39,203 nucleotides of DNA from Hyphomonadaceae bacterium (GTDB lineage: Bacteria > Pseudomonadota > Alphaproteobacteria > Caulobacterales > Hyphomonadaceae): NCBI GenBank assembly GCA_947478925.1, contig CANJXY010000012.1, positions 1 to 39,203 on the forward strand. The letters are read 5' to 3'. Below are positions 5,369-37,649 of the stretch, piece after piece (the first letter of the stretch is position 1; the number at the start of each line of letters is the position of its first letter). The position numbers were made by a program, and so were the translations under genes. The notes under the pieces are model-generated. The model did no database searches, was not told the DNA's origin, and worked only from the letters and a program-made list of their open reading frames with translations.

Positions 5369-5394
5369 CGCAGTCACCCCAGTTGGGAGTCGCA

Positions 5395-6123: not shown

Positions 6124-6128
6124 GTGCC

Positions 6129-6914: not shown

Positions 6915-6933
6915 GTGAGCGGCTCCTCAGACA

Positions 6934-7925: not shown

Positions 7926-8645
7926 ATGTCCAAGAAGGACAAACCGAAGAAATCCGAAGCGCCCGCCGCCGATGCGGCCGGTGCTGAAGGCGCTGATGGC
8001 GCCCCCGCAAAGAAGAAGTTGGCCGGAAAGACGCTGGTCCTCTTCGTGATCCTCCCCGCTGTCCTTGTTCTTGGCGGCGGCGGCGCGGCTGCGATGATGC
8101 TGATGGGCGGTGGCGGCGCGGCCGCAGCGCCTGCCGAGGCCGGCGCAGACGGGCATGCGGTCCCCGAGGAAGGTCACGAGGAAGCCGCAGGGCATGAAGC
8201 AGCTGGCGAGCATGGTGCAGAGCCTGCCGCTGGCGGCGAACATGGCGGCGAACATGGTGGCGAGCATGGCGCTGAAGGAGCTGAGGCCGGCGGGGACGCC
8301 GCCGACGTTGGCCGCGTCATGCCATGCGAGACCGGTAACCCCTGCTATTATGCGATGCCCAAGCTCATCGTGAACCTCGCGAGCACGGGTGGTGCGCGCG
8401 CCACCATGATGGAGCTCGAACTTTCGCTTGAAGCGTCGGCGACAACGACCTTCAACCGCGTGCCTGAACTGATGCCGCGCCTGAAAGACACGCTGAATTC
8501 GTTCCTGCGTGAACTACGGGTCGAGGATCTCAACGGTTCGGGCGGCACCTACAGCCTGCGTCGCGAACTGCTCAAGCGGTTCAATACGGTGATGGACCCC
8601 AAGAAGCTCGATGCGGTCCTCATCGAAGGCATGCTGATCCAGTAG
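7926..8645 (+). CDS. fliL: flagellar basal-body protein FliL with His/Glu/Gly-rich linker
   Basis: FliL is an inner-membrane protein next to the stator that supports torque and, in Caulobacter, rotation. The product has 239 residues: a charged cytoplasmic N terminus (1-30), one membrane helix (about 36-60), a low-complexity periplasmic linker rich in Gly, Ala, Glu and His (about 64-125; seven His between 77 and 114), two Cys (134, 140) and the FliL domain (YAMPKLIVNLAS, MELELSLEA, RLKDTLNSFLREL, KRFNTVMDPKKLDAVLIEGM). The linker contains three tandem near-copies of a 12-base unit (8232-8267). The domain itself is normal, the linker is unusually long. fliM follows 11 bases downstream. Confidence 0.94.
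   Translation: MSKKDKPKKSEAPAADAAGAEGADGAPAKKKLAGKTLVLFVILPAVLVLGGGGAAAMMLMGGGGAAAAPAEAGADGHAVPEEGHEEAAGHEAAGEHGAEPAAGGEHGGEHGGEHGAEGAEAGGDAADVGRVMPCETGNPCYYAMPKLIVNLASTGGARATMMELELSLEASATTTFNRVPELMPRLKDTLNSFLRELRVEDLNGSGGTYSLRRELLKRFNTVMDPKKLDAVLIEGMLIQ
8232..8267 (+). repeat. three tandem 12-base repeats in fliL
   Basis: The unit GGCGGCGAACAT occurs twice exactly (8232-8243 and 8244-8255), then once with two changes (GGTGGCGAGCAT, 8256-8267). It encodes the repeated tetrapeptide Gly-Gly-Glu-His in the FliL linker. Since the unit is a multiple of three, changes in copy number would keep the reading frame, so linker length could vary between strains by slippage. Confidence 0.85.
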
Positions 8646-8656
8646 GACATCCAGGC

Positions 8657-9805
8657 TTGGCGAGCGACACACCCTCTGACGAAGATCTGGCGGCGAGCTG
8701 GGAGGCGAGCGTCTCCGGTGGTGATCAATCCGCCGCCGACGACGCGTGGAACGCCGAGATTCCGGGCAGCGGTGGCCCTCCGGCCGATGCGCCGCAATCA
8801 ATCGCCCAGCAGGCCGCCGGCTCCGAGCGCATCCTCAACCAGGACGAAATCGACAGCCTGCTCGGCTTCTCGATGGACGAGGATGCGAGCGCCAAGAAGA
8901 ATGGCATTCGCGCCCTCATCAATTCCGCGCTGGTATCGTACGAACGCTTGCCCATGCTGGAGGTCGTCTTCGACCGCCTCGTGCGCCTGATGACGACAAG
9001 CTTGCGTAACTTCACCTCCGACAACGTCGAGGTGTCGCTGGATGCCATCCAGTCCATGCGCTTTGGCGACTATCTCAACTCGATCCCGCTGCCGGCGATC
9101 CTGGCCGTGTTCAAGGCCAAGCAGCTCGACAATTTCGGACTGCTGACGGTTGATTCCAACCTGATCTACTCCATCGTCGACGTGTTGCTCGGCGGCCGTC
9201 GCGGCACGATTGCAATGAGGGTAGAGGGCCGCCCCTACACCACGATCGAACGCGTGCTGGTCACCCGCCTCGTCGAAGTCATACTGCTTGACGCCCGCAA
9301 GGCCTTCGATCCGCTGACGCAGGTCGATTTCGAACTTGATCGCATCGAGACCAACCCGCGCTTTGCCGCCATCGCCCAGCCAGCCAACGCCGCCATTCTC
9401 GTGAAACTGCGCATCGACATGGAGGACCGCGGAGGCCGCTGCGAGCTTCTGTTGCCCTACGCCACGCTCGAACCGATCCGGAAGATGCTGTTGCAGAACT
9501 TCATGGGCGAGAAGTTCGGACGCGACAACATCTGGGAAGGCCACCTCGCGACCGAGCTGTGGTCGGCCCCCACGACGCTGCGCGTCGTGCTCGACGAGTT
9601 CAAGCAACCGCTCGGCAAGATGATGAACCTGGCTGTCGGCGACACACTGGTGATGAACGCCACGCCCGATTCCAAGGCGCAACTGATGTGCGGCGATATC
9701 CACCTGACAACTGGCCAGGTCGGCCGCATCGGCCAGAAGGTGGCGATGCGCGTCGAAGCGCCGATCACACAAGCGGCCAAGCGACAGCTATTGGAGACAA
9801 GATGA
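8657..9805 (+). CDS. fliM: flagellar motor switch protein FliM
   Basis: FliM forms the middle of the C ring and binds phospho-CheY. The product has 382 residues. The CheY-binding-type motif LNQDEIDSLLGF is at 60-71, preceded by an acidic, Ala-rich extension that enteric FliM lacks. The middle domain follows (YERLPMLEVVFDRLVRLMT, SMRFGDYLNSIPLPAILAVF, FKAKQLDNFGLLTVDSNLIY, DVLLGGRRG) and then a C-terminal SpoA-type domain (VVLDEFKQPLGKMMNLAVGD, GQVGRIGQKVAMRVE). The only suitable start is the TTG at 8657; no in-frame ATG or GTG precedes the CheY motif at a sensible place. The TGA overlaps the next ATG as ATGA, suggesting translational coupling. Confidence 0.96.
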   Translation: MASDTPSDEDLAASWEASVSGGDQSAADDAWNAEIPGSGGPPADAPQSIAQQAAGSERILNQDEIDSLLGFSMDEDASAKKNGIRALINSALVSYERLPMLEVVFDRLVRLMTTSLRNFTSDNVEVSLDAIQSMRFGDYLNSIPLPAILAVFKAKQLDNFGLLTVDSNLIYSIVDVLLGGRRGTIAMRVEGRPYTTIERVLVTRLVEVILLDARKAFDPLTQVDFELDRIETNPRFAAIAQPANAAILVKLRIDMEDRGGRCELLLPYATLEPIRKMLLQNFMGEKFGRDNIWEGHLATELWSAPTTLRVVLDEFKQPLGKMMNLAVGDTLVMNATPDSKAQLMCGDIHLTTGQVGRIGQKVAMRVEAPITQAAKRQLLETR

Positions 9806-10140
9806 GCGGTATCTACTCACTGGCGTTCGAGGGCTTTCTCGCCGTCCTCCTCCTCATCGCGATCCTTTATTGCATCCGTCTCGACGGACAGCTCAAGGCG
9901 CTGCGTACCGGCAATAATCGCATGCTCGAAGCGGCGCGAGAGCTGCAGTCCTCTGTCGTGCACGCCGACAACGCCGTGACCGCGCTGCGCCGCTCCGCCG
10001 ACGCTGCCGGCCGTGATCTTCAGAACAAGATCGACGAAGCGCGCGCCATGGCGACAACCCCGCTCATTCGCGACGAGATGATCTCCGAAAACTCCGTCCG
10101 CCCCGTCGACTTCTCACTGCGTCGCCGCAGCGTGCTCTAG
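9802..10140 (+). CDS. DUF6468-like one-TM protein of the flagellar operon
   Basis: A 112-residue protein starting in an ATGA overlap with the fliM stop. It has one membrane helix near the N terminus (about residues 8-26, FEGFLAVLLLIAILYCIRL) followed by a helical, probably coiled-coil segment (LDGQLKALRTGNNRMLEAAR) and a basic C terminus (FSLRRRSVL). The arrangement matches the DUF6468 family found next to flagellar genes in Alphaproteobacteria. In Caulobacter a bitopic protein encoded just after fliM, PflI, affects where the flagellum is placed; I infer that this may be its counterpart but have not been able to align them. motE-like follows by 9 bases. Confidence 0.7.
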   Translation: MSGIYSLAFEGFLAVLLLIAILYCIRLDGQLKALRTGNNRMLEAARELQSSVVHADNAVTALRRSADAAGRDLQNKIDEARAMATTPLIRDEMISENSVRPVDFSLRRRSVL

Positions 10141-10149
10141 GGATACGCC

Positions 10150-10917
10150 ATGACGCTCAAGGTCATAACGCCGAAGGTCGGGGTCTTCTCCGCCGTGATC
10201 GCCGTGTCGATCGGCGCGCTTGCGTTCAAGGGCGTCGACATTGCGCAGGCCGCCTTCGCCGTCGAGGCCGATCCGGCAGCTGCAGCGGCGCCCGCCGATA
10301 CGTCTGACCTCACCGCGGGTGAGGCGGCGCCTGCGCCCGACGGGGCTCCGCCCGCCGCCGACGCCGCCGCGCCGACGCCTGAACAATGTCTCACGACGCT
10401 CAACTCTGCGGCCGAAGAGATGGGCCTCTCCTCGCAGGAGATCGTGGTTCTGCGCTCGCTCCAGGCCCGTCGCGAAACCCTCGACCAACGCGAATCCGGC
10501 ATCGCCACGCGCGAAGCCGCCGCCGCCGCTGCTGAAGGCCGCTTGCAGGAACAGATCGCCCAGCTGAAATCCGTCGAGTCTGACGTCCAGACGCTGCTCG
10601 ACAAAATGGACGCCAAACGCGACGAGCGTATGGCCGCCCTGGTCAAGACTTACGAGTCGATGAAGCCGAAGGACGCCGCGCGCATCTTCAACGGCATGGA
10701 CGATGGGATCCTCGTCGATCTCGCCAAGACGATGAAGCCCGCAACACTCGCCGCCGTAATGTCGTCGATGGAATCCAAGCGTGCCGAGGCCCTCACGCGC
10801 ATGCTGGCTGATCTGTCCAAGCCGCCCGCTAGCCTCACGCCCGCAAGCGCGACGCCAGCCGCCGCGATCCCGCCTGCCTCCGCAGCAAAATCACCAGCGG
10901 CGAAAACGCCGGCATGA
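10150..10917 (+). CDS. MotE-like flagellar protein (MgtE-N-type domain)
   Basis: A 255-residue membrane-anchored periplasmic protein. Domains in order: N-terminal hydrophobic helix (about 8-26), Ala/Pro-rich linker (40-78), coiled coil with QARRETLDQRESGIATREAA (about 95-160), and a MgtE-N/FliG-like helical domain (about 163-223: LVKTYESMKPKDAARIFNGM, DDGILVDLAKTMKPATLAAV, MSSMESKRAEALTRMLADLS), then an Ala/Pro tail. This is the layout of MotE, a chaperone for the MotC periplasmic motor protein in rhizobia. There is no motC here, so the role may differ. The TGA overlaps the next ATG as ATGA. Confidence 0.8.
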   Translation: MTLKVITPKVGVFSAVIAVSIGALAFKGVDIAQAAFAVEADPAAAAAPADTSDLTAGEAAPAPDGAPPAADAAAPTPEQCLTTLNSAAEEMGLSSQEIVVLRSLQARRETLDQRESGIATREAAAAAAEGRLQEQIAQLKSVESDVQTLLDKMDAKRDERMAALVKTYESMKPKDAARIFNGMDDGILVDLAKTMKPATLAAVMSSMESKRAEALTRMLADLSKPPASLTPASATPAAAIPPASAAKSPAAKTPA

Positions 10918-13900
10918 GCGTGTTGCGCCCTCCTTCGGGTTGGGCAATTCGCCTCTCCATGGCTGGAGCGGCGGCGATCACGTTTGCTGCGCCCGCCTTC
11001 GCCGACAGACCTGTTCAACTCAGCTTCTCGGAAGCGACAACCTATGCACGCATCACGGCGAAATGGGCCGATGGCGACGAGGTAGCGCCGCGCATCAGCG
11101 CGCAGGTCAACAACCAGGTTCTGATCCTGACCTTCGACCAGAAAGTGAAGATAAATCTCGAGAAGCTGAAGGAAGGTCTGCCCAACTGGGCCGCCGTCAC
11201 CTTCATGGATCCGGACGGCATGACCGCCCGCATCGGCCTCAAGCAGGTCCCACGCCTTGCCGTCTCTACCTCCGCCGATCTTGTCGCCGTCGATCTCATT
11301 CCCGAAGCCTCCAGTGTGAAGCCACCCAAACTGCTCTCGCCACTGGTCGCGAAACAGAAGGCTGTCGCAGAAGCCAAGCGCATTGCCGCCCTGCCGCCGC
11401 CCGTGGCGCTGGAGCCGCTCGAAGTACGCGGCAGCCAGTCCGGCGACAGTTCGCGGATCGCCTTCTACTGGGACAACAAGACCAGCTATAAGGTTGTCTC
11501 GCAAACCGATGGCGTGATGAAGATCCAGTTCGCCAAGCGCGCCAAGCCGGATCTCGCCTACCTGCACATTACGCCGCCCGCGAACCTCGCCGATTTCCAG
11601 GGTGAGAATTCCGATAAGGGCTATCTCGTCACCATCGCCTCGAAGGACAAGCTGCCGATCAAGGCCTTCCTCGAAGGCGACACGCTCGTGGTCGACATCT
11701 CGAAGCCGCTGCCGCCGGAGGCGCCGGCAGAGAAGGGCGCCAACGCGCCCAAGGTCACGCCTGCGCCTGCCGCAAAAACCGTCAAGACCGACGATACGGG
11801 CGCGATCATGCTGACCCCGCCGCGCGGTCAGGCGCAGTCCGCCGACCTGCCAACCCCGCCCGCCGCCACGGATGTGATCGGTGGCGCCGAGCGCGTCACG
11901 TCGATGGCGAAAAGCTGGAACGATCCGGCGCCACGCAATGGCGTTGTTATCGTCAAGGCCTCCCCTCTGCCGAACGGCATCGCGCTGTCCTTCCCGTTCG
12001 CAGCGCCGGCCCCCGCCGCCATCTTTGCGCGTGGTCCTGTCACCTGGGCCATCTTCGCTGCGAACGCCGATCTCAAACTCGACCCTTCGCTTCTGCCTAT
12101 GGGCTACCGCGCCCGTACCTTCCGCGTAAAGAACGCCACCATCCTGCGACTTGAAACGCCCAAAGGTCTCAGCGTCTCGGCCCGGATGGATGAATCGACC
12201 TGGACGCTCAAGGTTGCGTCCACCGCTGACAAGCCCGAGCGCTTCGTCAAGGCAGATCGCAAGGCCGGGGAAGATGGCCGCTCCCGCATCGAGGCGATGC
12301 TGATCGGCGCCAGTGGCATCGTCTGGTTCGAGGATCCGGTGATCGGCGACCAGCTTGCCGCGGCCGTTTCCTACGGCCCCTCAACCGCCTCCGCTACGCC
12401 GCGCGACTTCGTGGAGGCCTCGCTCCTCGCCACGGCTCACGGCATCGCAATAGTCCCGAAGTCGGACGACGTGCAGGTAACGATGGAAGGCGAGCGCGTT
12501 GTCGCTTCCATGGCATCGAACCTACAGACGTTGCCTGACGCCTCGGTCGGGACCGGTAGTTTGACGCCGAGCGAGATCAATCCCGCCTTCATCGACTTTG
12601 CCGCCTGGGGGGGCGCCCGCGGCGCCCAGTACACCAAGCAACTCGTCGCGCTCGAGGGCAAGGCAGCCGATGTCGTACCTTCAACGCCCGCTGGTGGTGA
12701 AGCAGCGCTCAACCTCGCGCGCTTCCATCTCGGCCACGGCCAGGCACAGGAAGCGCTCGGCGTACTTCGCGCTGCAGCCGCTGGCCGGCCTGAACTCGAA
12801 CAGGACCCCAACTTCCTCGGTATGCGTGGCGCCGCCAATTACATGTCCGGCCGTCTCAAGGATGCCGAAGCAGATCTCTCGCGCGGCCTCCTGCGCGCCG
12901 ATCCGTCTGCCGCCCTCTGGCGTGCGATGGTCGCAGCAGGCAAGGGTGAATGGGATCGCGCCATCGAATTCTTCCGCGCCGCCGAACGTCAGCTCTATCT
13001 CTATCCAACCGTGCGCGGCGCCGAATTCTCCGCCGTGTGGGCCGAAGCCGCCCTGCGCGCAAACGACTACGACACGGCCCGCCGCCAGGCCAATCTTGCC
13101 GTCTCCAATGGCGAGCGCGAGGTGAAGGAACGCGGACAGCTGGTACTCGCCAATCTGCGCGCCACTATTGATGGTCCCGCCGCCGCCTGGCCCGAACTCG
13201 ATCGCCTGTCAAAATCCGCCGTCGAACCTGTGGCCGTGCGCGCCGAACTGCGCCGGCTCGAACTCGCCGTGCCGGCCGGCAAGATGAGCGCCAATGAGGC
13301 CGCTGAACAGCTTGAGGCGCTTCGCTTCCGTTGGCGTGGCGACGAAGTCGAAATGGCGACCGTCGGTATTCTCGCCGACCAGTACATGCGTGTCGGTCGC
13401 TTTCGTGATGCGCTGCTGCTCGCCCAGTCCACGGCTATGCGCGACACAAACGCGCCCGGCGCGCGCGAGCTGCGGCTCAAGCTAGCAGACTATTTCCGCC
13501 GCCTGTTCCTGACTGGCGAAGCCGACCGCCTCGATCCGATCCAGGCCGTCGCGCTGTTCTACGAATTCGACGACTCGCTGATGCCGATTGGGCCTGATGG
13601 CGACCAGATGGTACGCAAGCTCGCCCAGCGCCTCGTTGCGTTCGATCTGCTCGAACCGGCTTCGGCCCTGCTGCAATACCAGGTCGACAACCGTCTGCGC
13701 GGCGTCGGCAAGGCAGCCGTCGCAGTTGACCTTGCCTCGATCTATCTGTGGGACAAGCGGCCGGACAAGGCGCTCGCCGCCCTCAACTCGACGCGCATTC
13801 CCTCATTGCCCAAGCCGCTCGCACTTGAACGTCGCCTGCTCGAAGCCGCTGCCTATCGCGACCTCGGCCGGTTCGACCATGTCATCGAACTCGTCGAACC

Positions 13901-14285
13901 GCTCGAAGGGGTCGAACCGAAATCCCTGATGGCTGACGCCTACTGGCGCGACCGCAAATGGACCGAAGCAGGCCGCGCGCTGCTCGCCATGCTGCAAGGC
14001 ACGGCTCAGGTCACGACCAAGGATGCCGACCTCGTCTTCAAGACCGCCATCGCCGCTCGTATGGCAAAGGACCCCGGGATGATTGCGCAGATCCGTGGCT
14101 ACGCGAAAGCTATGGAAGGCAACGCCAACAAGGCCTCGTTCGATCTCATCACCGCGCAGACCGATGTCACGGGCGCCAGCCTCACCGAAGCCGTCCGCCG
14201 GCTCGCCGACGCCCCGCGTGTCGACGCATTCGCCACGGCCATGAAGAAGCGCTTCGACGCGCCCAAGGCCACGCCCGCTGGTTAG
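10914..14285 (+). CDS. 1,123-residue exported TPR protein ending the fliL operon
   Basis: A very large exported protein with a signal peptide (MAGAAAITFAAPAFA near residues 16-30). An N-terminal part of about 560 residues is rich in beta-type sequence with repeated short domains (for example LSFSEATTYARITAKWADGD and VVVDISKPLPPEA-like segments, reminiscent of AMIN-type periplasmic modules). From about residue 590 to the C terminus it is helical with tetratricopeptide-like repeats (ALNLARFHLGHGQAQEALGV, NYMSGRLKDAEADLSRGLL, GKGEWDRAIEFFRAAERQ). It starts inside the stop of the motE-like gene (ATGA), so it is made with the flagellar proteins. Proteins of this kind sit at this place in Caulobacterales, but I know of no defined function. 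It probably acts as a periplasmic scaffold. Its stop overlaps the convergent flavoprotein gene by four bases. Confidence 0.82.
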   Translation: MSVLRPPSGWAIRLSMAGAAAITFAAPAFADRPVQLSFSEATTYARITAKWADGDEVAPRISAQVNNQVLILTFDQKVKINLEKLKEGLPNWAAVTFMDPDGMTARIGLKQVPRLAVSTSADLVAVDLIPEASSVKPPKLLSPLVAKQKAVAEAKRIAALPPPVALEPLEVRGSQSGDSSRIAFYWDNKTSYKVVSQTDGVMKIQFAKRAKPDLAYLHITPPANLADFQGENSDKGYLVTIASKDKLPIKAFLEGDTLVVDISKPLPPEAPAEKGANAPKVTPAPAAKTVKTDDTGAIMLTPPRGQAQSADLPTPPAATDVIGGAERVTSMAKSWNDPAPRNGVVIVKASPLPNGIALSFPFAAPAPAAIFARGPVTWAIFAANADLKLDPSLLPMGYRARTFRVKNATILRLETPKGLSVSARMDESTWTLKVASTADKPERFVKADRKAGEDGRSRIEAMLIGASGIVWFEDPVIGDQLAAAVSYGPSTASATPRDFVEASLLATAHGIAIVPKSDDVQVTMEGERVVASMASNLQTLPDASVGTGSLTPSEINPAFIDFAAWGGARGAQYTKQLVALEGKAADVVPSTPAGGEAALNLARFHLGHGQAQEALGVLRAAAAGRPELEQDPNFLGMRGAANYMSGRLKDAEADLSRGLLRADPSAALWRAMVAAGKGEWDRAIEFFRAAERQLYLYPTVRGAEFSAVWAEAALRANDYDTARRQANLAVSNGEREVKERGQLVLANLRATIDGPAAAWPELDRLSKSAVEPVAVRAELRRLELAVPAGKMSANEAAEQLEALRFRWRGDEVEMATVGILADQYMRVGRFRDALLLAQSTAMRDTNAPGARELRLKLADYFRRLFLTGEADRLDPIQAVALFYEFDDSLMPIGPDGDQMVRKLAQRLVAFDLLEPASALLQYQVDNRLRGVGKAAVAVDLASIYLWDKRPDKALAALNSTRIPSLPKPLALERRLLEAAAYRDLGRFDHVIELVEPLEGVEPKSLMADAYWRDRKWTEAGRALLAMLQGTAQVTTKDADLVFKTAIAARMAKDPGMIAQIRGYAKAMEGNANKASFDLITAQTDVTGASLTEAVRRLADAPRVDAFATAMKKRFDAPKATPAG

Positions 14286-28471: not shown

Positions 28472-30019
28472 TTAAAATCCCAGCCTGTCCAATGTTGCGG
28501 AGATGCGGGCCCGTGTCGGCCCATCGCGAAACGGAAAGGCGCGGAGGAAATCGGCCTTGTCTAAGTGTTCTGCGCGACGGCGTGCGGACTCGGCCCACGC
28601 CCTGGCCCGCGCGTCGCTCCCTTGGAGGGCATGAGCGACGGCCGCGATCATCTCGATAAATGCATGGGCCCCCGGTGTGCTCGCCGCGCGCTCGGCCCAC
28701 TCCGCTGCGAGCGCAGGCTCATCGCGCGTGAGGTGGGATAACGCGTTGACCCCCCGCATGGCGTAAGCGAGCGGATCAAGAGGGCTAAGAGCCAAGGCCT
28801 CATCTATGTTTGCCCGACTGGCGTCTACGTCTCCGATCAGGGCTTCTGTCCAGCCGCGTGAATACTTCGCCTGGGCATAGTTCGGGTTCAGGTCATTTGC
28901 GCGCTCCAGCCAGGGTAGACTGGTCTCCAGTTCGCCGCGCAGCCAATAGGCTCTACCCATTGTAAAATGACCGAAGGGGTCGAGCGGGTCACGTTCAAGA
29001 CTCATGGATGCATAATGCTCAGCAAGCCGTGCCGCTTCAGGATCGTTCACGTAGCGCAGAAAGGCGCTCTGAAAATGCGTGAACGAAAGCCCGGCATAAG
29101 CCCGCGCGAACTTTGGCTCTAAAGCAACTGCGCGCTCGAACAGGGAAGTTGCGGTCTCATTGTCCGCCTTGTTGAAGCGGTACATGTGATGCAGGCCAAG
29201 GTGGTAGCTCGACCACGCGTCAAGATTACTGGGCGATTGCAGCAGCGCCCGACCGGCCTCGTGCAGTGGAATCCTGACTTCAACCGCACTCGTGACAGCA
29301 TTGATTATCAGATCGCGGATTTCGTGAACCGCCCCAATGTCGGCGCGAAACCGTTCGCTCCATATCACGCCCCTGTCCTGAGTGTCGCTCAGCTCGACGG
29401 ATATGGCGAGTGCCTTGCCGAGGACTTCAACGCTGCCCGTCAGGCAATACCTCACTCCAAGCTTCTGGCGTACGTTTTCAAGCGTCGCCTGCTCGGCCCG
29501 AAAGCGGAATGAGGACCCCCTCGCGATCACAAACAGCCAACGCAGGCGCGAGAGGCCTGCTATGAGATCATGAGGCAAAGCCTCCGCGATCGGAAACTCC
29601 GTCTCAACAGACCCGACGAGCGTGAACGGCAAGACGGCGATGCTCGGGCGCGAATCCAGAACGGGTTCGAGTTTGGCTATATCGGTGGATGCGCCGATGG
29701 ATATGGCGAGACGCGTTGTCACTTCGGCGACGAATGAGAAGCCCATCCCATGGACAGTGCGGATGAGGGCCTGAGCCCGGCCATCATCTCCGATCGCCTG
29801 CCGAGCCGACTTGATCCGACTGGCGATAGCGGCGTCTGAAATGATCCTGCCGTTCCAGACCTTTTCGACGATCTCATCTTTGCCGACCATCCGGTCACGA
29901 TTTTCGATCAGCAGGCGCAGCAGCGCAAAGACCTGCGGTTCGACAGCGATGGCAGCGCCGTCTGCGCGCAGCGTCATCCTGTCCGTGTCGAGCTCGAATT
30001 GCCTGAATACGTAGATCAT
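28472..30019 (-). CDS. winged-helix / TolB-like / TPR regulator (CadC-like architecture)
   Basis: A 515-residue protein with an OmpR/PhoB-type winged helix (about 1-100: FELDTDRMTLRADGAAIAVE, PQVFALLRLLIENRD, VGKDEIVEKVWNGRIISDAA, ALIRTVHGMGFSFVAEV), a TolB-N/FlgO-like domain (about 125-250: PSIAVLPFTLVGS, LTGSVEVLGKALAISVELSD, IWSERFRAD) and a TPR region (about 265-500). CadC-like regulators carry a membrane helix after the DNA-binding domain; I see none here, so it should be a soluble regulator sensing through its TPRs. The start is the ATG at 30019. It diverges from the methyltransferase gene with 143 bases between the two starts, and may control that gene or the kinase. Confidence 0.9.
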   Translation of the reverse strand: MIYVFRQFELDTDRMTLRADGAAIAVEPQVFALLRLLIENRDRMVGKDEIVEKVWNGRIISDAAIASRIKSARQAIGDDGRAQALIRTVHGMGFSFVAEVTTRLAISIGASTDIAKLEPVLDSRPSIAVLPFTLVGSVETEFPIAEALPHDLIAGLSRLRWLFVIARGSSFRFRAEQATLENVRQKLGVRYCLTGSVEVLGKALAISVELSDTQDRGVIWSERFRADIGAVHEIRDLIINAVTSAVEVRIPLHEAGRALLQSPSNLDAWSSYHLGLHHMYRFNKADNETATSLFERAVALEPKFARAYAGLSFTHFQSAFLRYVNDPEAARLAEHYASMSLERDPLDPFGHFTMGRAYWLRGELETSLPWLERANDLNPNYAQAKYSRGWTEALIGDVDASRANIDEALALSPLDPLAYAMRGVNALSHLTRDEPALAAEWAERAASTPGAHAFIEMIAAVAHALQGSDARARAWAESARRRAEHLDKADFLRAFPFRDGPTRARISATLDRLGF

Positions 30020-30162
30020 TTCGGACGTTCATAGCGGATTTCACGACGATCTGCAGGGAATCTCCAGACCGTCTGCAAGCATCGCCAAGCCGGCAGGCCT
30101 AGATCGGGGACCTGAGGCTGGCCTCGCCGGCGATAACAGACTGATGATTGAGGCAGATGCCC

Positions 30163-30978
30163 ATGAATCCGAACAAGGCGCTTTGGGAAAAAGGTGACTT
30201 CACGCGCATTGCACGCAGCATGCGCGAGAGTGGCGAGTCGCTCGTTGGAAGGCTCGGTGTGACACCCGGTATGAAGGTTCTTGACCTGGGTTGTGGCGAT
30301 GGAACGACAGCGATTCCAGCTGCGAAGCTCGGGGCGAACGTTCTCGGGGTCGATATCGCAAGCAATCTGGTTGCTGCTGGAAGCAGGCGCGCCGCAGAGC
30401 TCGGTCTTACGAACCTTCGCTTCCAGGAAGGTGACGCATCCAACCTGCTCGAGGTCGAAAGCAGGTCCTTCGATCTGGTGGTCAGCATCTTCGGGGCGAT
30501 GTTCGCGCCTCGGCCAGCGGACGTGGCGAAGGAGATGGTCCGCGTCACCCGGCCTGGCGGGTGTGTCGTGATGGGAAACTGGATTCCCAATGACCCTACA
30601 CTGGTCGCGCAGATCCTGAAGACGAGTTCCGCTTACTCACCTCCGCCCCCCGAGGGCTTCGTCAGCCCGATGACATGGGGCATTGAGGACAATGTCGTCG
30701 AACGGTTCACCGCTGCCGGCGTGAAGAGAGAAAACATCTCCTTCGAGAGAGAGACCTACACCTTCAACCATTCCGGGACGCCATCAGACTTTCTGGACGC
30801 ATTCAGGAACTTCTATGGACCGACAATGAACGCCTACGACGCCGCCGAGAAGAGCGGCAAGATCGCCCAACTTCATTCGGAACTTGAGGCCCTTTTCAGC
30901 AGCCAGAACAGAAGTCTGGCTGCGGGCATCACATCGATTCCGGCAACATTCCTTCTCGTCATTGCCACTATTGGCTGA
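30163..30978 (+). CDS. class I SAM-dependent methyltransferase
   Basis: A 271-residue enzyme of the UbiE/Methyltransf_11-25 type that transfers a methyl group from S-adenosylmethionine. Motif I is VLDLGCGDGTTA (39-50), followed by the acidic residue in VLGVDIASNLV and by FQEGDAS, FDLVVSIFGAMFAPRPADVA and RVTRPGGCVVMGNW. The N-terminal NPNKALWEKGDFTRIA is typical of a subgroup whose substrates are not known to me. The ATG at 30163 is chosen because GAGG lies nine bases upstream; ATG 30157 and TTG 30148 are in frame. The following lipoprotein gene starts 87 bases downstream. Confidence 0.9.
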   Translation: MNPNKALWEKGDFTRIARSMRESGESLVGRLGVTPGMKVLDLGCGDGTTAIPAAKLGANVLGVDIASNLVAAGSRRAAELGLTNLRFQEGDASNLLEVESRSFDLVVSIFGAMFAPRPADVAKEMVRVTRPGGCVVMGNWIPNDPTLVAQILKTSSAYSPPPPEGFVSPMTWGIEDNVVERFTAAGVKRENISFERETYTFNHSGTPSDFLDAFRNFYGPTMNAYDAAEKSGKIAQLHSELEALFSSQNRSLAAGITSIPATFLLVIATIG

Positions 30979-31065
30979 ACCGGCCGAACCCGAACTGGGC
31001 CGCACCAGGTCACGTCTCCCAAGCAGCACTGTCCCTCGTGCAAGCGATTTCAAAGGATCAGAACG

Positions 31066-31689
31066 ATGCAAGTCACACACTCAAGGAATGTTCTTTACAC
31101 GGTTGGCGCAGCTCTCCTGGCAGCTGGTCTGTCGGCCTGCTCGCCCACAGAAAGTGCACCAGCGGCGGCGCCCGCGCCCACGACGCCTGCTGCAGCTCCG
31201 GCCACCGTGCCAGCCAGCCCGCTCGACGTGAAAATCGCGCGCGCGGTGTCAGCAGCGCCATCAGACGTTTCGGGCGCAGCAAAGATCGTCGACGTCGATG
31301 GGACGGTCCTGCGCGAAGGCGCCAATGGCTGGACCTGCATTCCTGGCATTCCGCTGATACCGGGCGACGAGCACCCGATGTGCAACGACGCAACATGGAT
31401 GAAATGGCTGGATGCGGCCAAGACCGGCAGCAAGTTCTCGACCGACGTCGTCGGCGTCTCCTACATGCTGCAGGGCGATGCGATGGTCCACAACATGGAT
31501 CCTGCGGCCTCGACGCCTGACCAGGGCGCCATGTGGGTGCAAGAGGGGCCGCACCTGATGATGTTGTTCCCGTCGCCTGCGATGATCGCCAGCCTTCCGC
31601 GCGATCCTCATGCGGGCGGCCCCTATGTCATGTGGGACAATACACCCATGGTTCACGTCATGATGCCGATCGAAACCAAGTCAAAATAG
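31066..31689 (+). CDS. conserved hypothetical lipoprotein
   Basis: A 207-residue secreted lipoprotein. The signal ends in LLAAGLSAC with Cys at residue 25, then an Ala/Pro/Thr-rich spacer and a compact domain with IVDVDGTVLREGANGWTCIP, HPMCNDATWMKWLDA, GVSYMLQGD, GPHLMMLFPSP and YVMWDNTPMVHVMMP. I recognise this as a domain seen in other uncharacterised bacterial proteins (the DGTVLREGxNGWTC and PMCxDxxW patterns) but know no function. AAGGA precedes the ATG by nine bases. It may be transcribed with the methyltransferase. Confidence 0.75.
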   Translation: MQVTHSRNVLYTVGAALLAAGLSACSPTESAPAAAPAPTTPAAAPATVPASPLDVKIARAVSAAPSDVSGAAKIVDVDGTVLREGANGWTCIPGIPLIPGDEHPMCNDATWMKWLDAAKTGSKFSTDVVGVSYMLQGDAMVHNMDPAASTPDQGAMWVQEGPHLMMLFPSPAMIASLPRDPHAGGPYVMWDNTPMVHVMMPIETKSK

Positions 31690-32010
31690 TGGTCCATTCG
31701 ACGGGCCTGGTTGTCGAAGTTTTGTATATGCCCGCTCGATTGTACAACGCCTCCAGCGGCGATGGCGTTGGTGGTGCCCCGTGATCTGTCCGCCTCAGGC
31801 ATTGCCGACCGGCCATGCGGGCGGCAGCGAAAGACTGGTTTTGGCCGAGGTCTTTCCTGAGCTGCGGGGCAGGAGCGATCGACAATTTACGGGCTCCCGC
31901 GTCATCGGGAACGCTAGGGCAGGCTGCGTGTGCTGTCGCGCTGGGACCACTTGCGTTCTCGATCGCTTGACGCACTCTCGCCCTTTATGTCGTGGCGGAG
32001 GGTCAGCAGC
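31690..32010. other. intergenic region upstream of the TfoX-C gene
   Basis: 321 bases with no gene I can support. Short frames exist on both strands (for example 31815-31970 plus and 31658-31975 minus) without recognisable similarity. It probably contains the promoter of the TfoX-C-like gene. I see no tRNA, terminator with a T run, or repeat. Confidence 0.4.
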
Positions 32011-32322
32011 ATGCCGACGAAATCCGGGACGGACGGGGTAGCCGAGTTGGCAGCGCTACCGTCACTCGGTCTGGCTTCGGCCCGGATGCTGGTAGAGGCC
32101 GGCGTGCCTGACGCCTCAAGTTTGCGCCGACTGGGCGCCATTGAGTGCTTTCGTCGCCTCAGATTTCACCACGGTAAGCGCGCCACACTCAACTTCGTCT
32201 ATGCGATCGAATGTGCTTGTCACGGCTTGGACTGGCGGTTGCTCGAAGAGGGACGCAAGGCCGAATTGCGTTCCGCCGCAAGGGCGGTCGCAGACGAACT
32301 TCAACGACAGCCGAAAGGCTGA
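32011..32322 (+). CDS. stand-alone TfoX C-terminal-domain protein
   Basis: A 103-residue protein that reads as the C-terminal domain of TfoX (PF04994 type): LAALPSLGLASARMLVEAGV, DASSLRRLGAIECFRRLRFH, LNFVYAIECACHGLDWRLL and KAELRSAARAVADEL. The fold is a helix-hairpin-helix-like module. TfoX regulates competence in Haemophilus and Vibrio, but stand-alone C-terminal domains are widespread and uncharacterised. GGAGGG lies about eight bases before the ATG at 32011; the upstream frame to 31930 is not counted. There is no TfoX N-terminal domain nearby. Confidence 0.82.
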   Translation: MPTKSGTDGVAELAALPSLGLASARMLVEAGVPDASSLRRLGAIECFRRLRFHHGKRATLNFVYAIECACHGLDWRLLEEGRKAELRSAARAVADELQRQPKG

Positions 32323-32522
32323 AGCTGGACGAAACCCGGCCTGCCTGATCGAGCCATCGCGCGCGGCGTCTGTTGCGCGGCCCGGATGTTCGTAAAAACA
32401 GGTCGGCTCTGACCGCGATGGACCCCGTTCGCCCCTTCGCCTTGACCCGCCACACGGCCGCAGCAACACTCATCGATCGGGTGATTGGGCTCAGTGACAC
32501 GTAAACATCGACGGGAGCTGCG

Positions 32523-34310
32523 ATGCAGGCGAAGCCAAGACGACTTTCACGGGTGTCGGCGCAGTTGGCTGCCGTGCGCAGTGTGGCCCTTGGCGCGGTA
32601 TTCGCCGTTGCTGTCACGTCGCTGGCAGGTTGTGGTAGTCCGCCGCTCTTGGCAGCACATCAGAGCAACGATGTGGTCGACGGTAAGGCGCAAAGCGCGG
32701 CGACGATCTACTACAACGCCGACGTCCTGACCCTTGTTGATGCCGCACCAACTGCAAACGCCATTGCCGTAAGGGACGGCCGCATCCTGGCCGTCGGCGA
32801 TTTCAAGGATGTACGTGCCGCCGCAGGCGGGCAGGCGGTACTGCGTAACATGAACGGCTCTACGATCGTGCCCGGCCTGATCGACGCTCACGGACATTTT
32901 GCGAGCGTCGCACGCGTCCTGTCGCTCGCCGACCTCCAACCTGCGCCGAGCGGCCGTGTCTCGAACATGGCGGAACTCCTTTTAGCCCTGCAGGCTTGGC
33001 GCGCCAGGAATCCAACCGCCGCCTGGATACAGGGGGTTGGCTATGACGACTCGCTGCTCGCGGAGCGCCGTCATCCAACGCGCGATGATCTGGATAGCAT
33101 CTCCAAGGACATCCCGATTGCGGTCACCCATGTGTCCGGACATCTCATGTCCTGCAATTCCGCCTGCCTCGCGGCGTCTGGGATTACTGCGACGACCGAG
33201 AACCCGAAGGGCGGGGTCATCCGGCGCAGGCCAGGCACACGCGAGCCCAACGGTGTTCTTGAAGAGGCTGCGATTCAGCTCGTGATCGCCAGGTTGCCTC
33301 AGCCAACGGCTGAGCAAACGCAGGCCGATCTGCGCAAGGCGCAGGACTACTATGCAAGCTATGGCATCACGACAGTGCAGGAGGGCGGCGCTTCACGACA
33401 GGACATCGCTGATCTGCGGGTCTTCGCCGGCGGGGGCGGTCTTCATCTCGATGTCGTCGCATACGTTCAGCACACACGACTGCCCGAGCTTGCTCCGGAT
33501 TTTGCGGCCTCACATACCTATGACAACCATTTCCGGATCGGGGGCATCAAACTCACCCTGGATGGTTCCCCGCAGGGCAAGACAGCCTGGCTGACCCAAC
33601 CTTATCTCATAGCGCCGGATGGCCTGCCCAAGGACTATCGCGGTTATGGCACGCTTGACGATACGCAGGTTGATCGCATCACTGGCGCGGCATTCGCACG
33701 CAACATTCAGGTTTTGATGCACGCCAACGGCGACGCCGCCATTGATCAGATGATCGGCGCCGTGTCGCGGGCAGAAGCGGCCAACGGCCCCGGAGATCGT
33801 CGGCCGGTCATGATACACGCGCAGACGGCGCGGGAAGACCAGCTCGATCACATGAAGGCGAAAGGGATCATCCCATCATTCTTCGTAACCCATACCTACT
33901 TCTGGGGTGACTGGCATAGGGATTCCGTGTTGGGCGAATCGCGAGCAGCGCGGATCAGTCCGCTGAAGTCAGCTGAGGCGCGCGGGCTGCACTTCACGAT
34001 CCACAATGATTCACCAGTGGTGCCGCCGGACATGATGCGCCTGATGTGGTCGGCGGTGAACCGGACGACGCGCAGCGGAAAGACGCTGGGTCCGGAACAA
34101 CAGATATCGCCGCTGCGAGCGCTGAAGGCGATTACAACGGACGCTGCCTATCAATACTTCGAGGAGGATCGGAAGGGCACGATTGAAGTAGGCAAGCTCG
34201 CCGATCTCACAGTCCTGTCCGGCGATCCGCTTCGCGTGCAGCCCGCGCTGATCAAGGACATCAGGGTTCTCGAAACAATCAAGGAAGGCGCGACCCTGTT
34301 TTCCCGTTGA
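32523..34310 (+). CDS. YtcJ-like amidohydrolase lipoprotein
   Basis: Metal-dependent amidohydrolase of the YtcJ / amidohydrolase-3 type, 595 residues. The signal ends in the lipobox TSLAGC (Cys37), so it should be secreted and lipid-anchored. The metal-binding DAHGH (121-125) follows the NADVLTL and IVPGLIDAHGH pattern, and later metal and active-site segments include IKLTLDGSPQGKTAWLTQPY, LMHANGDAAIDQMI, IHAQTAREDQL, FTIHNDSPV and a C-terminal KGTIEVGKLADLTVLSGDPL. Substrates in this family are poorly known (amides, ureido compounds). GGGAGC is upstream of the ATG at 32523. Confidence 0.93.
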   Translation: MQAKPRRLSRVSAQLAAVRSVALGAVFAVAVTSLAGCGSPPLLAAHQSNDVVDGKAQSAATIYYNADVLTLVDAAPTANAIAVRDGRILAVGDFKDVRAAAGGQAVLRNMNGSTIVPGLIDAHGHFASVARVLSLADLQPAPSGRVSNMAELLLALQAWRARNPTAAWIQGVGYDDSLLAERRHPTRDDLDSISKDIPIAVTHVSGHLMSCNSACLAASGITATTENPKGGVIRRRPGTREPNGVLEEAAIQLVIARLPQPTAEQTQADLRKAQDYYASYGITTVQEGGASRQDIADLRVFAGGGGLHLDVVAYVQHTRLPELAPDFAASHTYDNHFRIGGIKLTLDGSPQGKTAWLTQPYLIAPDGLPKDYRGYGTLDDTQVDRITGAAFARNIQVLMHANGDAAIDQMIGAVSRAEAANGPGDRRPVMIHAQTAREDQLDHMKAKGIIPSFFVTHTYFWGDWHRDSVLGESRAARISPLKSAEARGLHFTIHNDSPVVPPDMMRLMWSAVNRTTRSGKTLGPEQQISPLRALKAITTDAAYQYFEEDRKGTIEVGKLADLTVLSGDPLRVQPALIKDIRVLETIKEGATLFSR

Positions 34311-34445
34311 GAGCCTAACCGCGCAAAAATGCGACCTTTGCCGGGACCGCCGATGACAGTCTGGGGCGAGAACGCGCCGCACCCAAAGGAATGTGATCAA
34401 CGTCGCGATTGGGGCAGGGCGGTTGTCGAGGTACAAGCTGCCTGC

Positions 34446-34850
34446 ATGAGCAAAAGCCTCCGACGCGCTCTCTCCGTCACCGACATTCTTTTCCTGGCGT
34501 ATTGGGCGGCGTCCGCGCTCCATCTTGTGGGTCTGTTACCAATTCCGGCAGATTGGCTTTATGCCGACGCCAATGATGCGCGTGTTGTGGCGTGGAACTG
34601 GTCGTTTTTTCCTTTGGACCTGGCCTTCTCGGTGACTGGGCTCGCCGCTATTCGCTACGCACGACACGAAAATCCGCTTTGGAAACCCCTGGCGCTTGTT
34701 TCTTTGGTGCTGACAATGGTCGCTGGCGGGATGGCCGTGGGATATTGGACGCTGCGGGGCGAATTTGATCCCTTCTGGTTCCTGCCCAACCTGGCTCTGC
34801 TCATTTGGCCTCTGTTTTTTCTGCGCGGAGCAATTGCCCGGCTGCGATGA
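34446..34850 (+). CDS. YvaD-like (DUF5360) membrane protein
   Basis: A 134-residue integral membrane protein with four likely helices (about residues 10-30, 47-66, 75-95 and 105-125) and motifs SVTDILFLAYWAASALHLVG, WNWSFFPLDLAFSVTGLAAI and DPFWFLPNLALLIWPLFFL. This matches YvaD/DUF5360 proteins, whose function is unknown. The ATG at 34446 gives the family N terminus; the frame upstream to 34329 is not counted. It is 135 bases after the amidohydrolase and 165 bases before the nitroreductase start. Confidence 0.78.
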   Translation: MSKSLRRALSVTDILFLAYWAASALHLVGLLPIPADWLYADANDARVVAWNWSFFPLDLAFSVTGLAAIRYARHENPLWKPLALVSLVLTMVAGGMAVGYWTLRGEFDPFWFLPNLALLIWPLFFLRGAIARLR

Positions 34851-34973
34851 CGAGCTTGCCCATGACCGACTTTGGGCGACTCGGTGAGATCGCGACATCC
34901 CGGATTCATGTGAACGCCGGGCGGCCTCAACGTCTCCGACGGCTAGACGATTGGGTTCTGGCCGCATAAGCCG

Positions 34974-34986
34974 CCACCTGTGGTGG
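34974..34986. promoter_or_regulatory. short inverted repeat upstream of the nitroreductase gene
   Basis: Arms CCACC (34974-34978) and GGTGG (34982-34986) with a three-base centre TGT lie 29 bases before the nitroreductase ATG. The position fits an operator, but a five-base arm can occur by chance, and no regulator gene is beside it. Confidence 0.2.
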
Positions 34987-35015
34987 AACCAAGCCAGACT
35001 TCTCAGGGACACAAC

Positions 35016-35693
35016 ATGCAGTTTGACGATGTCATCCTCGGTCGCCGCAGCATCCGTGGTTACAAACCTGATCCAGTTCCCAAGGCGCTGATTGAAGAAA
35101 TCATCGCCCTGGCGATGCGGGCGCCGTCGTCGATGAACACCCAGCCATGGAATTTCTATGTCATCACAGGCGAACCCCTGAACCGGATCCGTGCGGGCAA
35201 CACCGAGCGAACGGTCGCGGGCGTCCCGCAATCGCGCGAGTTCCGAACGGGTCAGGCCTTTGCGGGCAAGCACCGCGACAGACAGGTTGGTGTCGCAAAA
35301 CAATTGTTTTCTGCAATGGGGATCGAGCGCGATGACAAGGACAAGCGCCAGGATTGGGTGCTGCGCGGTTTCCGCCAGTTCGACGCGCCTGTGTGTGTGA
35401 TCGTGACCTATGACCGCGTGCTGGACGGCAGCGACGATACGCCCTTCGATTGCGGTGCGGTGACGACCGCCCTGGTAAACGCGGCCTGGTCTCGCGGCCT
35501 TGGCGCGGTGATCAACAGTCAGGGCATAATGCAGTCCCCGGTCGTGCGTGAGCACGCCGGAATAGCCGACGATCAGATCATCATGAAGAGCATCGCGCTC
35601 GGCTGGCCCGACGAAACGTTTCCGGCAAACGCAGTCGTGTCCGAGCGCAAGCCAGTCGAGGAGGCGACCGTGTTTGTCGGTTTCGACCACTAG
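35016..35693 (+). CDS. nitroreductase-family flavoprotein
   Basis: FMN-dependent nitroreductase-type oxidoreductase, 225 residues, using NAD(P)H. The N-terminal ILGRRSIRGYKPDPVPKALI is the FMN phosphate-binding motif and APSSMNTQPWNFYVITG follows. The C-terminal part has AWSRGLGAVINSQGIMQSP, SIALGWPDE and FPANAVVSERKPVEEATVFVGF. The ATG at 35016 follows AGGG; 12 upstream codons to 34980 are not counted. A short inverted repeat, CCACC-TGT-GGTGG (34974-34986), lies just before the gene and could be an operator. It is convergent with the TIR-domain gene. Confidence 0.92.
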   Translation: MQFDDVILGRRSIRGYKPDPVPKALIEEIIALAMRAPSSMNTQPWNFYVITGEPLNRIRAGNTERTVAGVPQSREFRTGQAFAGKHRDRQVGVAKQLFSAMGIERDDKDKRQDWVLRGFRQFDAPVCVIVTYDRVLDGSDDTPFDCGAVTTALVNAAWSRGLGAVINSQGIMQSPVVREHAGIADDQIIMKSIALGWPDETFPANAVVSERKPVEEATVFVGFDH

Positions 35694-35771
35694 GCTTGCT
35701 CGAGCGTTGGTCGCGCTCCAACATGCGTGACTTACCTATCGCGCCCGATGCCGACATTCGCCTGGCGCCGA

Positions 35772-37421
35772 TTATGCCAGCGGGGTTTCGTCCCAGACTT
35801 TGCGAAAGGCCGTGTTCAAAGCCGTTGCCGCCCAAGGCGCCACCATCATGGTGGCGCGATTTTCGAAGCGCTCCGGGAGTGTCGACGGCTCGACCAAACG
35901 CAGTGCGCGGATGGACGCCCGAGCGTCGTCGCCTGCGCCAGCGAGGCTCTTCAGCGCCGCCCGCGTTAGAAGCGTCATGCTGTACTGCGGATTGAGGCGA
36001 AACGCCTTGTCGATCGCGTCTATTGCCGAGTCCTGCTCGTCCCGCAGGAAATGCGCTAACGCCTTGAGGTGCAGCGAGATAAACAAAAGACGGCTTCCCG
36101 GCGCGAGCCGCTCCCAGGAGCCGAGACTTGATAGAGCTTCATCACCCTGCCCAAGTCGAATGTGGATGAGAGAAAGCACGTGGAACGCCATGGGGTTGTC
36201 CGGCGTCAGGGCGAGCACACGATCGATATGATGAAGCCCATCATCCGGACGCCCAACGAAGACCAGAGCGCTGGCGCACCGCCAGATTGCTGCCGGGTCG
36301 TTCGGAGACAATGCCAGCGCCCGTCCGACCACTGTCAGGATTTCTTCATGCAGCGCCAGATCACTTCCACCCAGCTCGAGGAGCTGCATGCCTAGTCCGG
36401 AAGCAAGTACCGCGTGCGCGAAACCATGGTCCGGGGCGATTTCTACCGCGCGACGCGCTTCGGCGACCGCGTCGGTTAGTCTGCCCTGGAGCATCGACTC
36501 CGCGCGCAGCAAGATCTGGTGGACAGTCAGGTCTCCGGTCGCCTTCAGCGCGCGCTCGCCCTCCAGGATGCGCACTTTGACGTGAAGGTGCGCTGCAACC
36601 GCGGTGATGAGCTGCTCCTGAAGCGCCACCAGTTCTGCCAGAGGCTGGTCAAATTTCTGCATCCAGAGAACCGCTCCAGACTCTGCTTCGCTGAGCTGCG
36701 CAGTCACCCGCAGTGTATGCCCGATCCGCCGGACGTTTCCCTCCAGGACATAGCGCACGCCCAGCGCTTGACCCACTTCACGCAGGTCGAATGCCTTGCC
36801 GCGCCAGGCTGCAGCAGCGCCGGCGGCGAGAACTTTCAGATCCGGGCTGAATGCCAGGGCCGCTACAATGTCCTCAACCATGCCGTCGGCGAAGGCCTCG
36901 TCCTCTGGCAGGCCTGAGCGGTTGGTGAAGGGAAGCACTGCGAGCGACGGTGGCTCACCCCGTTCAGCGTGTCTTGCTGGTATCGGGGGCATGGTAGTTG
37001 GCGCCCACAGGACCTGTGCAGTTCCACGGTCCGCTGTCACGAACCTCTTCACATCACCAAGAAACGCCAACCAGGCCGTGTCGTCGGTCGCGCCCTGCCA
37101 GTTCCCTAAATCAGCCGTCTGCGTCAGTTCGAACATGATCGGTCGCTCGCAGGACTCGATCATCACCGGGAGCAGTGTCTTATTTCGGTCGGCAAGCGTA
37201 GCCTCGGCGCGCACCCAGCGCGACACAACAGACTTCTTCGACCAGAGTACGACGACGGCCTTCGCTGTCCGCAGCGCCGTCTCCGTCACCTCGTCGTAGG
37301 CTTCACCCGTCCGCAGGCCGACATCCCACCAGACCTTGAAGCCTTCGCGCTCGAAAGCCTCCGCGAATAGCTTCGCGCGCGCCTGGTCCTCGCGATTGTA
37401 GGAAAGAAAAATGTCCGGCAC
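35772..37421 (-). CDS. TIR domain / TolB-like / TPR protein
   Basis: A 549-residue protein. Residues 2-125 form a bacterial TIR domain (PDIFLSYNREDQARAKLFAE, GFKVWWDVGLRTGEAYDEVT, AKAVVVLWSKKSVVSRWVRA, with the conserved Glu73). Residues 158-280 form a TolB-N/FlgO-like domain (PSLAVLPFTNRSGLPEDEAF, DGMVEDIVAALAF, YVLEGNVRRIGHTLRVTAQL, VLWMQKFD). Residues 300-520 are TPR-like. TIR domains can cleave NAD or mediate contacts; neither is shown here. The start is GTG 37421, preceded by GGGG; the TTG at 37496 would add 25 unlike-looking residues. It shares its last two modules with the winged-helix gene at 28472-30019. Confidence 0.9.
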   Translation of the reverse strand: MPDIFLSYNREDQARAKLFAEAFEREGFKVWWDVGLRTGEAYDEVTETALRTAKAVVVLWSKKSVVSRWVRAEATLADRNKTLLPVMIESCERPIMFELTQTADLGNWQGATDDTAWLAFLGDVKRFVTADRGTAQVLWAPTTMPPIPARHAERGEPPSLAVLPFTNRSGLPEDEAFADGMVEDIVAALAFSPDLKVLAAGAAAAWRGKAFDLREVGQALGVRYVLEGNVRRIGHTLRVTAQLSEAESGAVLWMQKFDQPLAELVALQEQLITAVAAHLHVKVRILEGERALKATGDLTVHQILLRAESMLQGRLTDAVAEARRAVEIAPDHGFAHAVLASGLGMQLLELGGSDLALHEEILTVVGRALALSPNDPAAIWRCASALVFVGRPDDGLHHIDRVLALTPDNPMAFHVLSLIHIRLGQGDEALSSLGSWERLAPGSRLLFISLHLKALAHFLRDEQDSAIDAIDKAFRLNPQYSMTLLTRAALKSLAGAGDDARASIRALRLVEPSTLPERFENRATMMVAPWAATALNTAFRKVWDETPLA

Positions 37422-37649
37422 GCCCGACCCCGCTGGTATGGATGGCAGAGTTACAGGACAGAGGCCGAAAGGTCTAATCCCGTCGCAAACATCCAAAGAC
37501 TACGAATTGCGGGCTATGGGCAATCTCATGCCGCATCGCCGAACGGCGCGCCAGCGCCCCCTATCGTGCTCGGCGGGCATTCACGATAGACGAGCTTGGG
37601 CTAGTGTGTCCTGGGCGCACGATTCCGGCGCAGGCGGGGAGTTCCTCGA

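Follow-up and report, generated by a model that had tools for sequence, protein, structure and literature searches.

Bacterial TIR enzymes have mostly been studied together with dedicated activators, in Thoeris, retron and Argonaute systems, and many TIR domains are adaptors. For AbTir, mutation of S140, D167, W204 or E208 is reported to inhibit the NADase and R151 to be needed for activity, and in E. coli TcpC the equivalent of W204 is reported not to be needed (PMC11374754). The conflict systems of Kaur et al. 2020 and 2021 place TIR domains on NTPase-tetratricopeptide repeat (TPR) proteins and FGS domains in related systems (PMC7159879, PMC8195603). Here we analysed 39,203 nucleotides of a Hyphomonadaceae genome (contig CANJXY010000012.1, positions 1 to 39,203; hereafter the window), in which two genes, P0001 and P0002, carry a TolB-like domain and TPRs behind different N-terminal domains. 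In the explanation that we consider probable as a whole, the two genes are old and separate members of a modular TolB/TPR family with exchangeable output domains, and P0002 belongs to a group of cytosolic TIR receptors that is sparse but locally expanded. The two genes and their domains are as follows.

28472-30019, minus strand: gene P0001, 515 amino acids, OmpR-type winged helix, TolB-like domain and TPRs
29732-29953, minus strand: winged-helix DNA-binding domain of P0001 (Trans_reg_C, residues 23-96, Pfam E 5e-14)
29246-29653, minus strand: TolB-like domain of P0001
35772-37421, minus strand: gene P0002, 549 amino acids from a GTG (574 from a TTG at 37496), TIR, TolB-like domain and TPRs
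37092-37412, minus strand: TIR domain of P0002 (TIR_2), with W69-E73 of the WxxxE motif at 37203-37217
36534-36974, minus strand: TolB-like domain of P0002, residues 150-296 (bounds as modelled alone)
35787-36524, minus strand: TPR region of P0002 (approximately residues 300-545), which evolves faster than the other two domains

The TolB-like module of P0001 and P0002

A preliminary description of this DNA had given both genes a TolB-N/FlgO-like domain and a TPR tail, one of them an OmpR-type domain and the other a TIR domain with its conserved glutamate. The reading frames, motifs and tails are all present, both genes lying on the minus strand. PSIAVLPFT stands at residue 125 of P0001 and PSLAVLPFT at residue 158 of P0002, with YCLTGSV/YVLEGNV and VIWSERF/VLWMQKF as further pairs; Pfam finds TPRs in both proteins, Trans_reg_C in P0001 and TIR_2 in P0002 (E 1e-21), and Glu73 is the glutamate of the WxxxE motif (W69-V-R-A-E73), which aligns with that of AbTIR. 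No membrane helix is evident in P0001 (maximum 19-residue hydropathy 1.35) or in P0002 (highest hydropathy 1.55).

BLASTP aligned P0001 with P0002 at E 2e-20 (25% identity over 355 amino acids), and the TolB-like parts by themselves at E 6e-20 (30.5% identity over 131 amino acids, 66.6 bits). The TPR parts scored 28.9 bits against each other, within the 21.9-37.4 bits that each gave with two further TPR proteins from this genome, so the likeness of the two proteins sits in the TolB-like domain: of the two shared parts that had been proposed, this one is alike and the TPR parts are no closer than other TPR proteins. The common middle domain matched no Pfam family at E 0.01 in either protein; across 30 TIR-TolB sequences FlgO was found in two and TolB_N in one. 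A model of P0002 built from a 30-sequence alignment had a mean predicted local distance difference test score (pLDDT) of 88, as had the TolB-like domain modelled alone. The latter matched FlgT best (Z 14.7, root-mean-square deviation (rmsd) 3.2 over 134), followed by TolB (Z 11.3-12.6, best rmsd 3.0 over 122), PelC (Z 10.2-11.1), CsgG (Z 10.0) and the periplasmic domain of CadC (Z 9.9). The shared domain, as modelled for P0002, is therefore of the TolB-N/FlgT/CsgG type, and its original assignment holds at the level of fold. With the whole P0002 model, CadC is not among the best 50 structural matches listed and is listed by Foldseek; the TIR part matched the SPARTA TIR at Z 15.7.

The two genes belong to different branches of this family. 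In a tree of TolB-like domains the clade of P0002 comprised 39 rows, all with a TIR (support 98/96), and that of P0001 comprised 11, all with a winged helix (support 100/98); the tree kept 138 of 156 labelled rows after removal of identical or short domains, and with few alignment columns and an unsettled bootstrap its deep forks are unsure. Within its own genome P0001 scored 90.2 bits with a cyclase-TolB-TPR protein on contig C343 (a single copy, its cyclase recognised by eye), 77.6 bits with a TIR protein on contig C208 and 75.4 bits with P0002. The nearest near-full-length paralogues of P0002 lie on contigs C153 and C208 (49-51% identity), each of which has a tandem pair.

The preliminary description had also suggested that one sensor-like module serves different outputs, and a survey of its N-terminal partners supports this. 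A profile of the module found it in 18 of 57 genomes of the class, its own included, with 43 open reading frames (ORFs) in the 17 others. Among the best 25 of 32 Pfam families listed for the N-terminal parts of 39 of these (four ORFs lacking that part were dropped), class III cyclases were commonest (Guanylate_cyc, 21/39), then winged helices (Trans_reg_C, 6/39), with BTAD in 2/39. TIR was found in none of the 43 ORFs by a TIR profile built here; TIR is a rare form of the module in this class-wide sample. Similar proteins occurred in 384 plasmid records, and among the 20 listed those with a name are of winged-helix, cyclase or CadC type ('winged helix-turn-helix domain-containing tetratricopeptide repeat', 'adenylate/guanylate cyclase domain-containing protein', 'CadC-family transcriptional regulator'). 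Judged from these sequences, the TolB-TPR module as a rule exchanges the domain at its N terminus. TIR became joined to TolB-type domains on more than one occasion, since supported branches of the tree force at least four label changes and the best tree needs 10. Another TolB-like/TPR protein of the same genome (L036, 3069-4895) has a different N-terminal domain and, by eye, a membrane-helix-like stretch.

TIR and sensor halves in the TIR-TolB family

Some TIR-TolB genes share, in addition to the TIR domain, the DNA in front of it:

37422-37510, minus strand: conserved promoter-like or leader stretch common to some paralogues (ends approximate; core pattern 37445-37476)

The first genes of the C153 and C208 arrays have 79% DNA identity over 558 bp, from this upstream stretch to about the end of the TIR domain, and the TIR domains of their proteins are 89% identical. 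Beyond the TIR no DNA match was found between them, amino-acid identity is 35% in the TolB-like domain and 25% in the TPRs, and the two TolB-like domains fall in different clades of the tree. The second genes of the same arrays are colinear, with 82% DNA identity. From this junction it is clear that the sensor half differs by replacement between the two first genes. The five copies in the genome follow the same trend, with identities of 79-93% for the TIR, 35-93% for the TolB-like domain and 21-81% for the TPRs.

We then compared the two halves over 78 genes (after dropping duplicates, short domains and unlabelled loci; genome labels were taken from contig names). TIR and TolB identities correlated weakly (r 0.27), with means of 0.68 for the TIR and 0.41 for the TolB-like domain. 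For the 51 genes with a genome-mate, the nearest TolB-like domain was in the same genome in 15 cases and the nearest TIR in 24. Conflict between the two trees was judged by likelihood differences against control halves of the same domain: TolB halves on TIR trees cost 1736-1953 log units versus 111-126 for the other TolB half, and TIR halves on TolB trees 456-791 versus 194-327 for the other TIR half. The p-values of the approximately unbiased (AU) test were set aside, since the same-domain control halves were also rejected by it. In six chosen pairs the ratio of non-synonymous to synonymous substitution rates (dN/dS) was 0.06-0.13 for the TIR, 0.04-0.13 for the TolB-like domain and 0.12-0.43 for the TPRs. 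When the window gene is compared with its four TolB-bearing paralogues, agreement at third codon positions of the TIR is no more than 0.47-0.58, which rejects gene conversion alone as the source of the alike TIRs in this genome and indicates that most of the TIR likeness reflects old constraint; the C153/C208 junction still calls for a replacement.

The shared stretch of about 85 bp lies ahead of P0002, of the first gene in each of the C153 and C208 arrays and of copies in genomes G013 and G004. In its own genome the core pattern has four matches at up to two mismatches, each followed by a TIR gene or by a truncated copy of one, and a reversed control has two at up to three mismatches. Eight genus members gave seven matches at up to one mismatch (six in G013, one in G004), all before TIR-TolB genes, and otherwise only matches at three mismatches, like the controls. 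The pattern was derived from the TIR genes themselves and the test is its absence elsewhere: at up to two mismatches it occurs only at TIR loci in the nine genomes searched. The stretch may act as a promoter. Its DNA is conserved, yet one copy (L039_10652) is shifted by 1 nt, which is expected of non-coding sequence, and for this reason the GTG at 37421 is the more likely start of P0002; a coding N-terminal extension from the TTG at 37496 was rejected, as the stretch behaves as non-coding. The truncated copy (L037, G000:C268, about 2965-3110) consists of the upstream stretch and the start of a TIR, with no sensor half.

Close relatives of the TIR were detected at 77 loci, 58 of them with at least one TIR-TolB gene; together with three loci of the own genome, 13 of 61 hold two or more in tandem, many contigs being short. 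By record titles the relatives come mostly from Hyphomonadaceae, Caulobacteraceae, Sphingomonadaceae and Erythrobacteraceae, with metagenome-assembled genomes labelled Gammaproteobacteria in addition. Matches to P0002 at E 1e-80 were found in four of 199 genomes of the order, its own included (that in G195 omits the TIR), and a TIR-TolB match in four of 15 genomes of the genus. At L090 (4014-5703) and L097 (6995-8891) the TIR-TolB gene is split, with the TIR in one ORF and the sensor part in another. Pfam searches of 10 chosen TIR proteins showed relatives fused to AAA_16, WD40, FGE-sulfatase, FHA or MORN domains; two AAA_16 matches were above the cut-off, and matches to nSTAND1 and MalT-type TPRs were below it. 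Long proteins with a related TIR are found at L093 (2263-4866, with the nSTAND1 and MalT-type matches), L094 (4430-7033, of the same length) and L104 (7010-10510, AAA_16), and a 1110-residue frame running off a contig end in Sandarakinorhabdus oryzae (L095, 1005-4334) combines TIR, class III cyclase and AAA_16. The own genome also encodes TIR proteins with FGE-sulfatase (L032, 3195-4886; L033, 4295-5863, is similar by eye) and with MORN repeats (L034, 3698-6151).

Possible functions of P0002

The AbTir residues S140, D167, W204 and E208 (PMC11374754) align with S7, D33, W69 and E73 of P0002, all four invariant in 30 of 30 aligned sequences; by this alignment the P0002 TIR has the residues expected of an NADase. 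Building on the observed architecture, fold and catalytic motif, the upstream stretch shared along with the TIR and the sensor replacement in one array, we propose that the fast-evolving TPR/TolB half of P0002 would bind a ligand or partner, upon which TIR domains would assemble and cleave NAD+, and that this cleavage would give a nucleotide signal or stop the cell. An immune-like use is favoured over a metabolic signal because of the sparse occurrence, the tandem copies, the faster TPRs, the sensor replacement and the TIR relatives with AAA_16 NTPase, WD40, FGE-sulfatase, FHA or MORN domains. More tentatively, the family may amount to an immune-like receptor repertoire of Caulobacterales and Sphingomonadales, in which a constant promoter and TIR are kept, the sensor is replaced and diversified in arrays and a single NAD-cleaving output answers to many triggers, with no need for the NTPase switch of NLR proteins.

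Several observations weigh against our explanation as a whole. The nearest TIR lies in another genome for 27 of the 51 genes, and P0002 has its nearest TIR and nearest TolB-like domain in one and the same G013 gene, showing no exchange of its own. Same-domain TIR halves also disagree, so that the conflict on the TIR side is only about twice the noise; the TPR dN/dS stays below 1 and may reflect relaxed constraint, dS being high in some pairs. Some TIR-TolB genes lack the upstream stretch, namely the second gene in both the C153 and the C208 array, one member of the G013 C16 array and the genes at G013 C9 and in G009. The position of AbTir R151 is K17 in P0002 and is not conserved in the family, and the residue mapping leaves out AbTir V193, R215 and Y238. 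Over its full length P0002 has no counterpart among the PADLOC and NCBIfam families; no phage match was found for it, and none of the 384 plasmid records covers 80% of it. Its neighbours are metabolic (nitroreductase, SnoaL, amidohydrolase, DoxX), and of 10 neighbouring ORFs, eight in the window and two at arrays, one, the methyltransferase beside P0001, partly resembles mad2. Near the TIR arrays at 13 loci, PADLOC at 1e-20 matched at most six of 119 ORFs. These were 119 of 122 array neighbours of at least 150 amino acids, and the control comprised 97 of 98 ORFs; the control gave 32 families, of which 25 are listed, mostly from two methyltransferases, and the two sets are not closely comparable. 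With no clear PADLOC excess over the control, a defence island around the arrays finds no support.

In an alternative reading P0002 would be a physiological sensor with no immune role, in which the TIR replaces the cyclase of the common cyclase-TolB-TPR proteins and makes an NAD-derived messenger upon a metabolite or stress. In its favour are class III cyclases as the commonest partners of the module (21/39), followed by DNA-binding domains, the metabolic neighbours and the lack of clear defence enrichment. Sparse occurrence and tandem copies at 13 of 61 loci, however, are unusual for a housekeeping sensor, and the faster TPR evolution, the sensor replacement and the close TIRs on AAA_16-type NTPase proteins also speak against it; we consider this alternative rather unlikely. 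That the TIR is a protein-protein adaptor without NAD+ cleavage is improbable: many TIR domains are of this kind, and AbTir R151 corresponds to a K17 that is not invariant, but S7, D33, W69 and E73 are invariant in 30/30 and the TIR dN/dS is low.

P0001 and the comparison with known systems

Two further features of the window concern P0001:

30050-30077, no strand: three direct repeats of the 11-bp unit TCTSCA-N5 ahead of P0001, a likely operator
30148-30978, plus strand: divergent ORF encoding a methyltransferase (exact start uncertain), which is probably a partner of P0001 or its target

OmpR/PhoB-type domains bind direct repeats of 11-bp period. Just upstream of P0001 the repeat units read TCTGCAGGGAA TCTCCAGACCG TCTGCAAGCAT, and a pattern defined from the window sequence together with the two closest orthologues has one match at up to two mismatches in the 3.94-Mb genome, at 30050-30077 with none; its reversed control also has one match. 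Nine P0001 orthologues (46-76% identity) were taken from related genomes with their surroundings, G010:C64 being cut at a contig end; a tenth, split match in G056 stands outside this set. Eight orthologues were scanned for the repeat: five score 14-15 of 15 at the same place (the two defining ones included), one 13 and two 12, the five well-kept cases sharing one genus, so that plain relatedness may help. It is kept despite a differing divergent gene: the window and G012 have a methyltransferase here, G011 has a cupin followed by the methyltransferase, and G009, G044 and G022 have a tautomerase, whereas in G010 and G006 cupin-like ORFs stand farther away and the assignment in G052 is unclear (identified by Pfam for the window, G011 and G009, by eye for the others). 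The methyltransferase is kept near P0001 in G011 and G012, the nearest genomes with intact surroundings, at 72-75% identity. P0001 is probably a local regulator of the HilA/CadC type, which would bind the three repeats directly upstream of its own gene and control itself and the divergent methyltransferase.

The surroundings of the orthologues also bear on the origin of the window pair. No P0002-like gene was found near the eight orthologues with usable surroundings (tblastn at E 1e-15, 9.7-19 kb each); in two of these regions the P0002 matches overlie the P0001 orthologue itself. The earlier view of the pair as one duplicated, domain-swapped unit, to which the common TolB-like domain and the location of both genes within 9 kb would lend themselves, is contradicted by the separate supported clades, by the fact that neither gene is the other's best match in the genome and by this absence of linkage, which makes a local duplicate pair with exchanged input domains very improbable and led us to reject a recent duplication.

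Elsewhere in the window a flagellar-looking cluster was noted by eye (4634-14285; FlgF/FlgG-, FliL- and FliM-like proteins), and no known RNA family was found in it at gathering thresholds.

Among known systems, P0001 shares with the CadC/HilA family an N-terminal OmpR-type domain, a TolB-like domain and TPRs. The NCBIfam model of HilA/EilA (PRK12370) aligns over residues 3-476 (E 7e-24) at 84.1 bits, far below its cut-off of 589, which places P0001 outside that group. CadC has a membrane helix, and none is evident between the winged helix and the sensor domain of P0001. Proteins with a class III adenylate/guanylate cyclase have the TolB-TPR tail in common with both window genes and a cyclase where P0002 has its TIR and P0001 its winged helix.

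Thoeris ThsB likewise has a TIR domain, but the ThsB_TIR profile scores 19.8-19.9 bits on P0002, below its 21.2-bit cut-off, and P0002 has a TolB-TPR tail; no Thoeris match was found among the eight window and two array neighbours, nor at 1e-20 among the 119 ORFs near arrays. P0002 also differs from STAND/NLR proteins, having no NTPase match at E 0.01 and a middle domain modelled with a TolB fold. Its TIR fold, WxxxE motif and further activity residues are those of AbTir and SPARTA TIR-APAZ; the partner domains differ, and the AbTir R151 position is not conserved. As in the systems of Kaur et al., relatives of its TIR carry AAA_16 or FGE-sulfatase domains in the same chain; P0002 itself lacks an NTPase match and carries the TolB-like domain between TIR and TPRs instead.

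Searches of an open-access library gave no earlier account of the TIR-TolB-TPR form. The preliminary description had called the whole family not well described, which holds for this form only: TolB-TPR proteins with a cyclase or a winged helix occur commonly and already have names in public annotation. P0002 is open to direct testing, with a defined glutamate, no evident membrane helix and, in its family, a natural pair with near-identical TIRs and different sensors. If our reading is true, this TIR family shares its sensor module with CadC, HilA and cyclases, swaps it behind a constant TIR and upstream stretch, and so shows how a signalling module may become a diversifying set of receptors.

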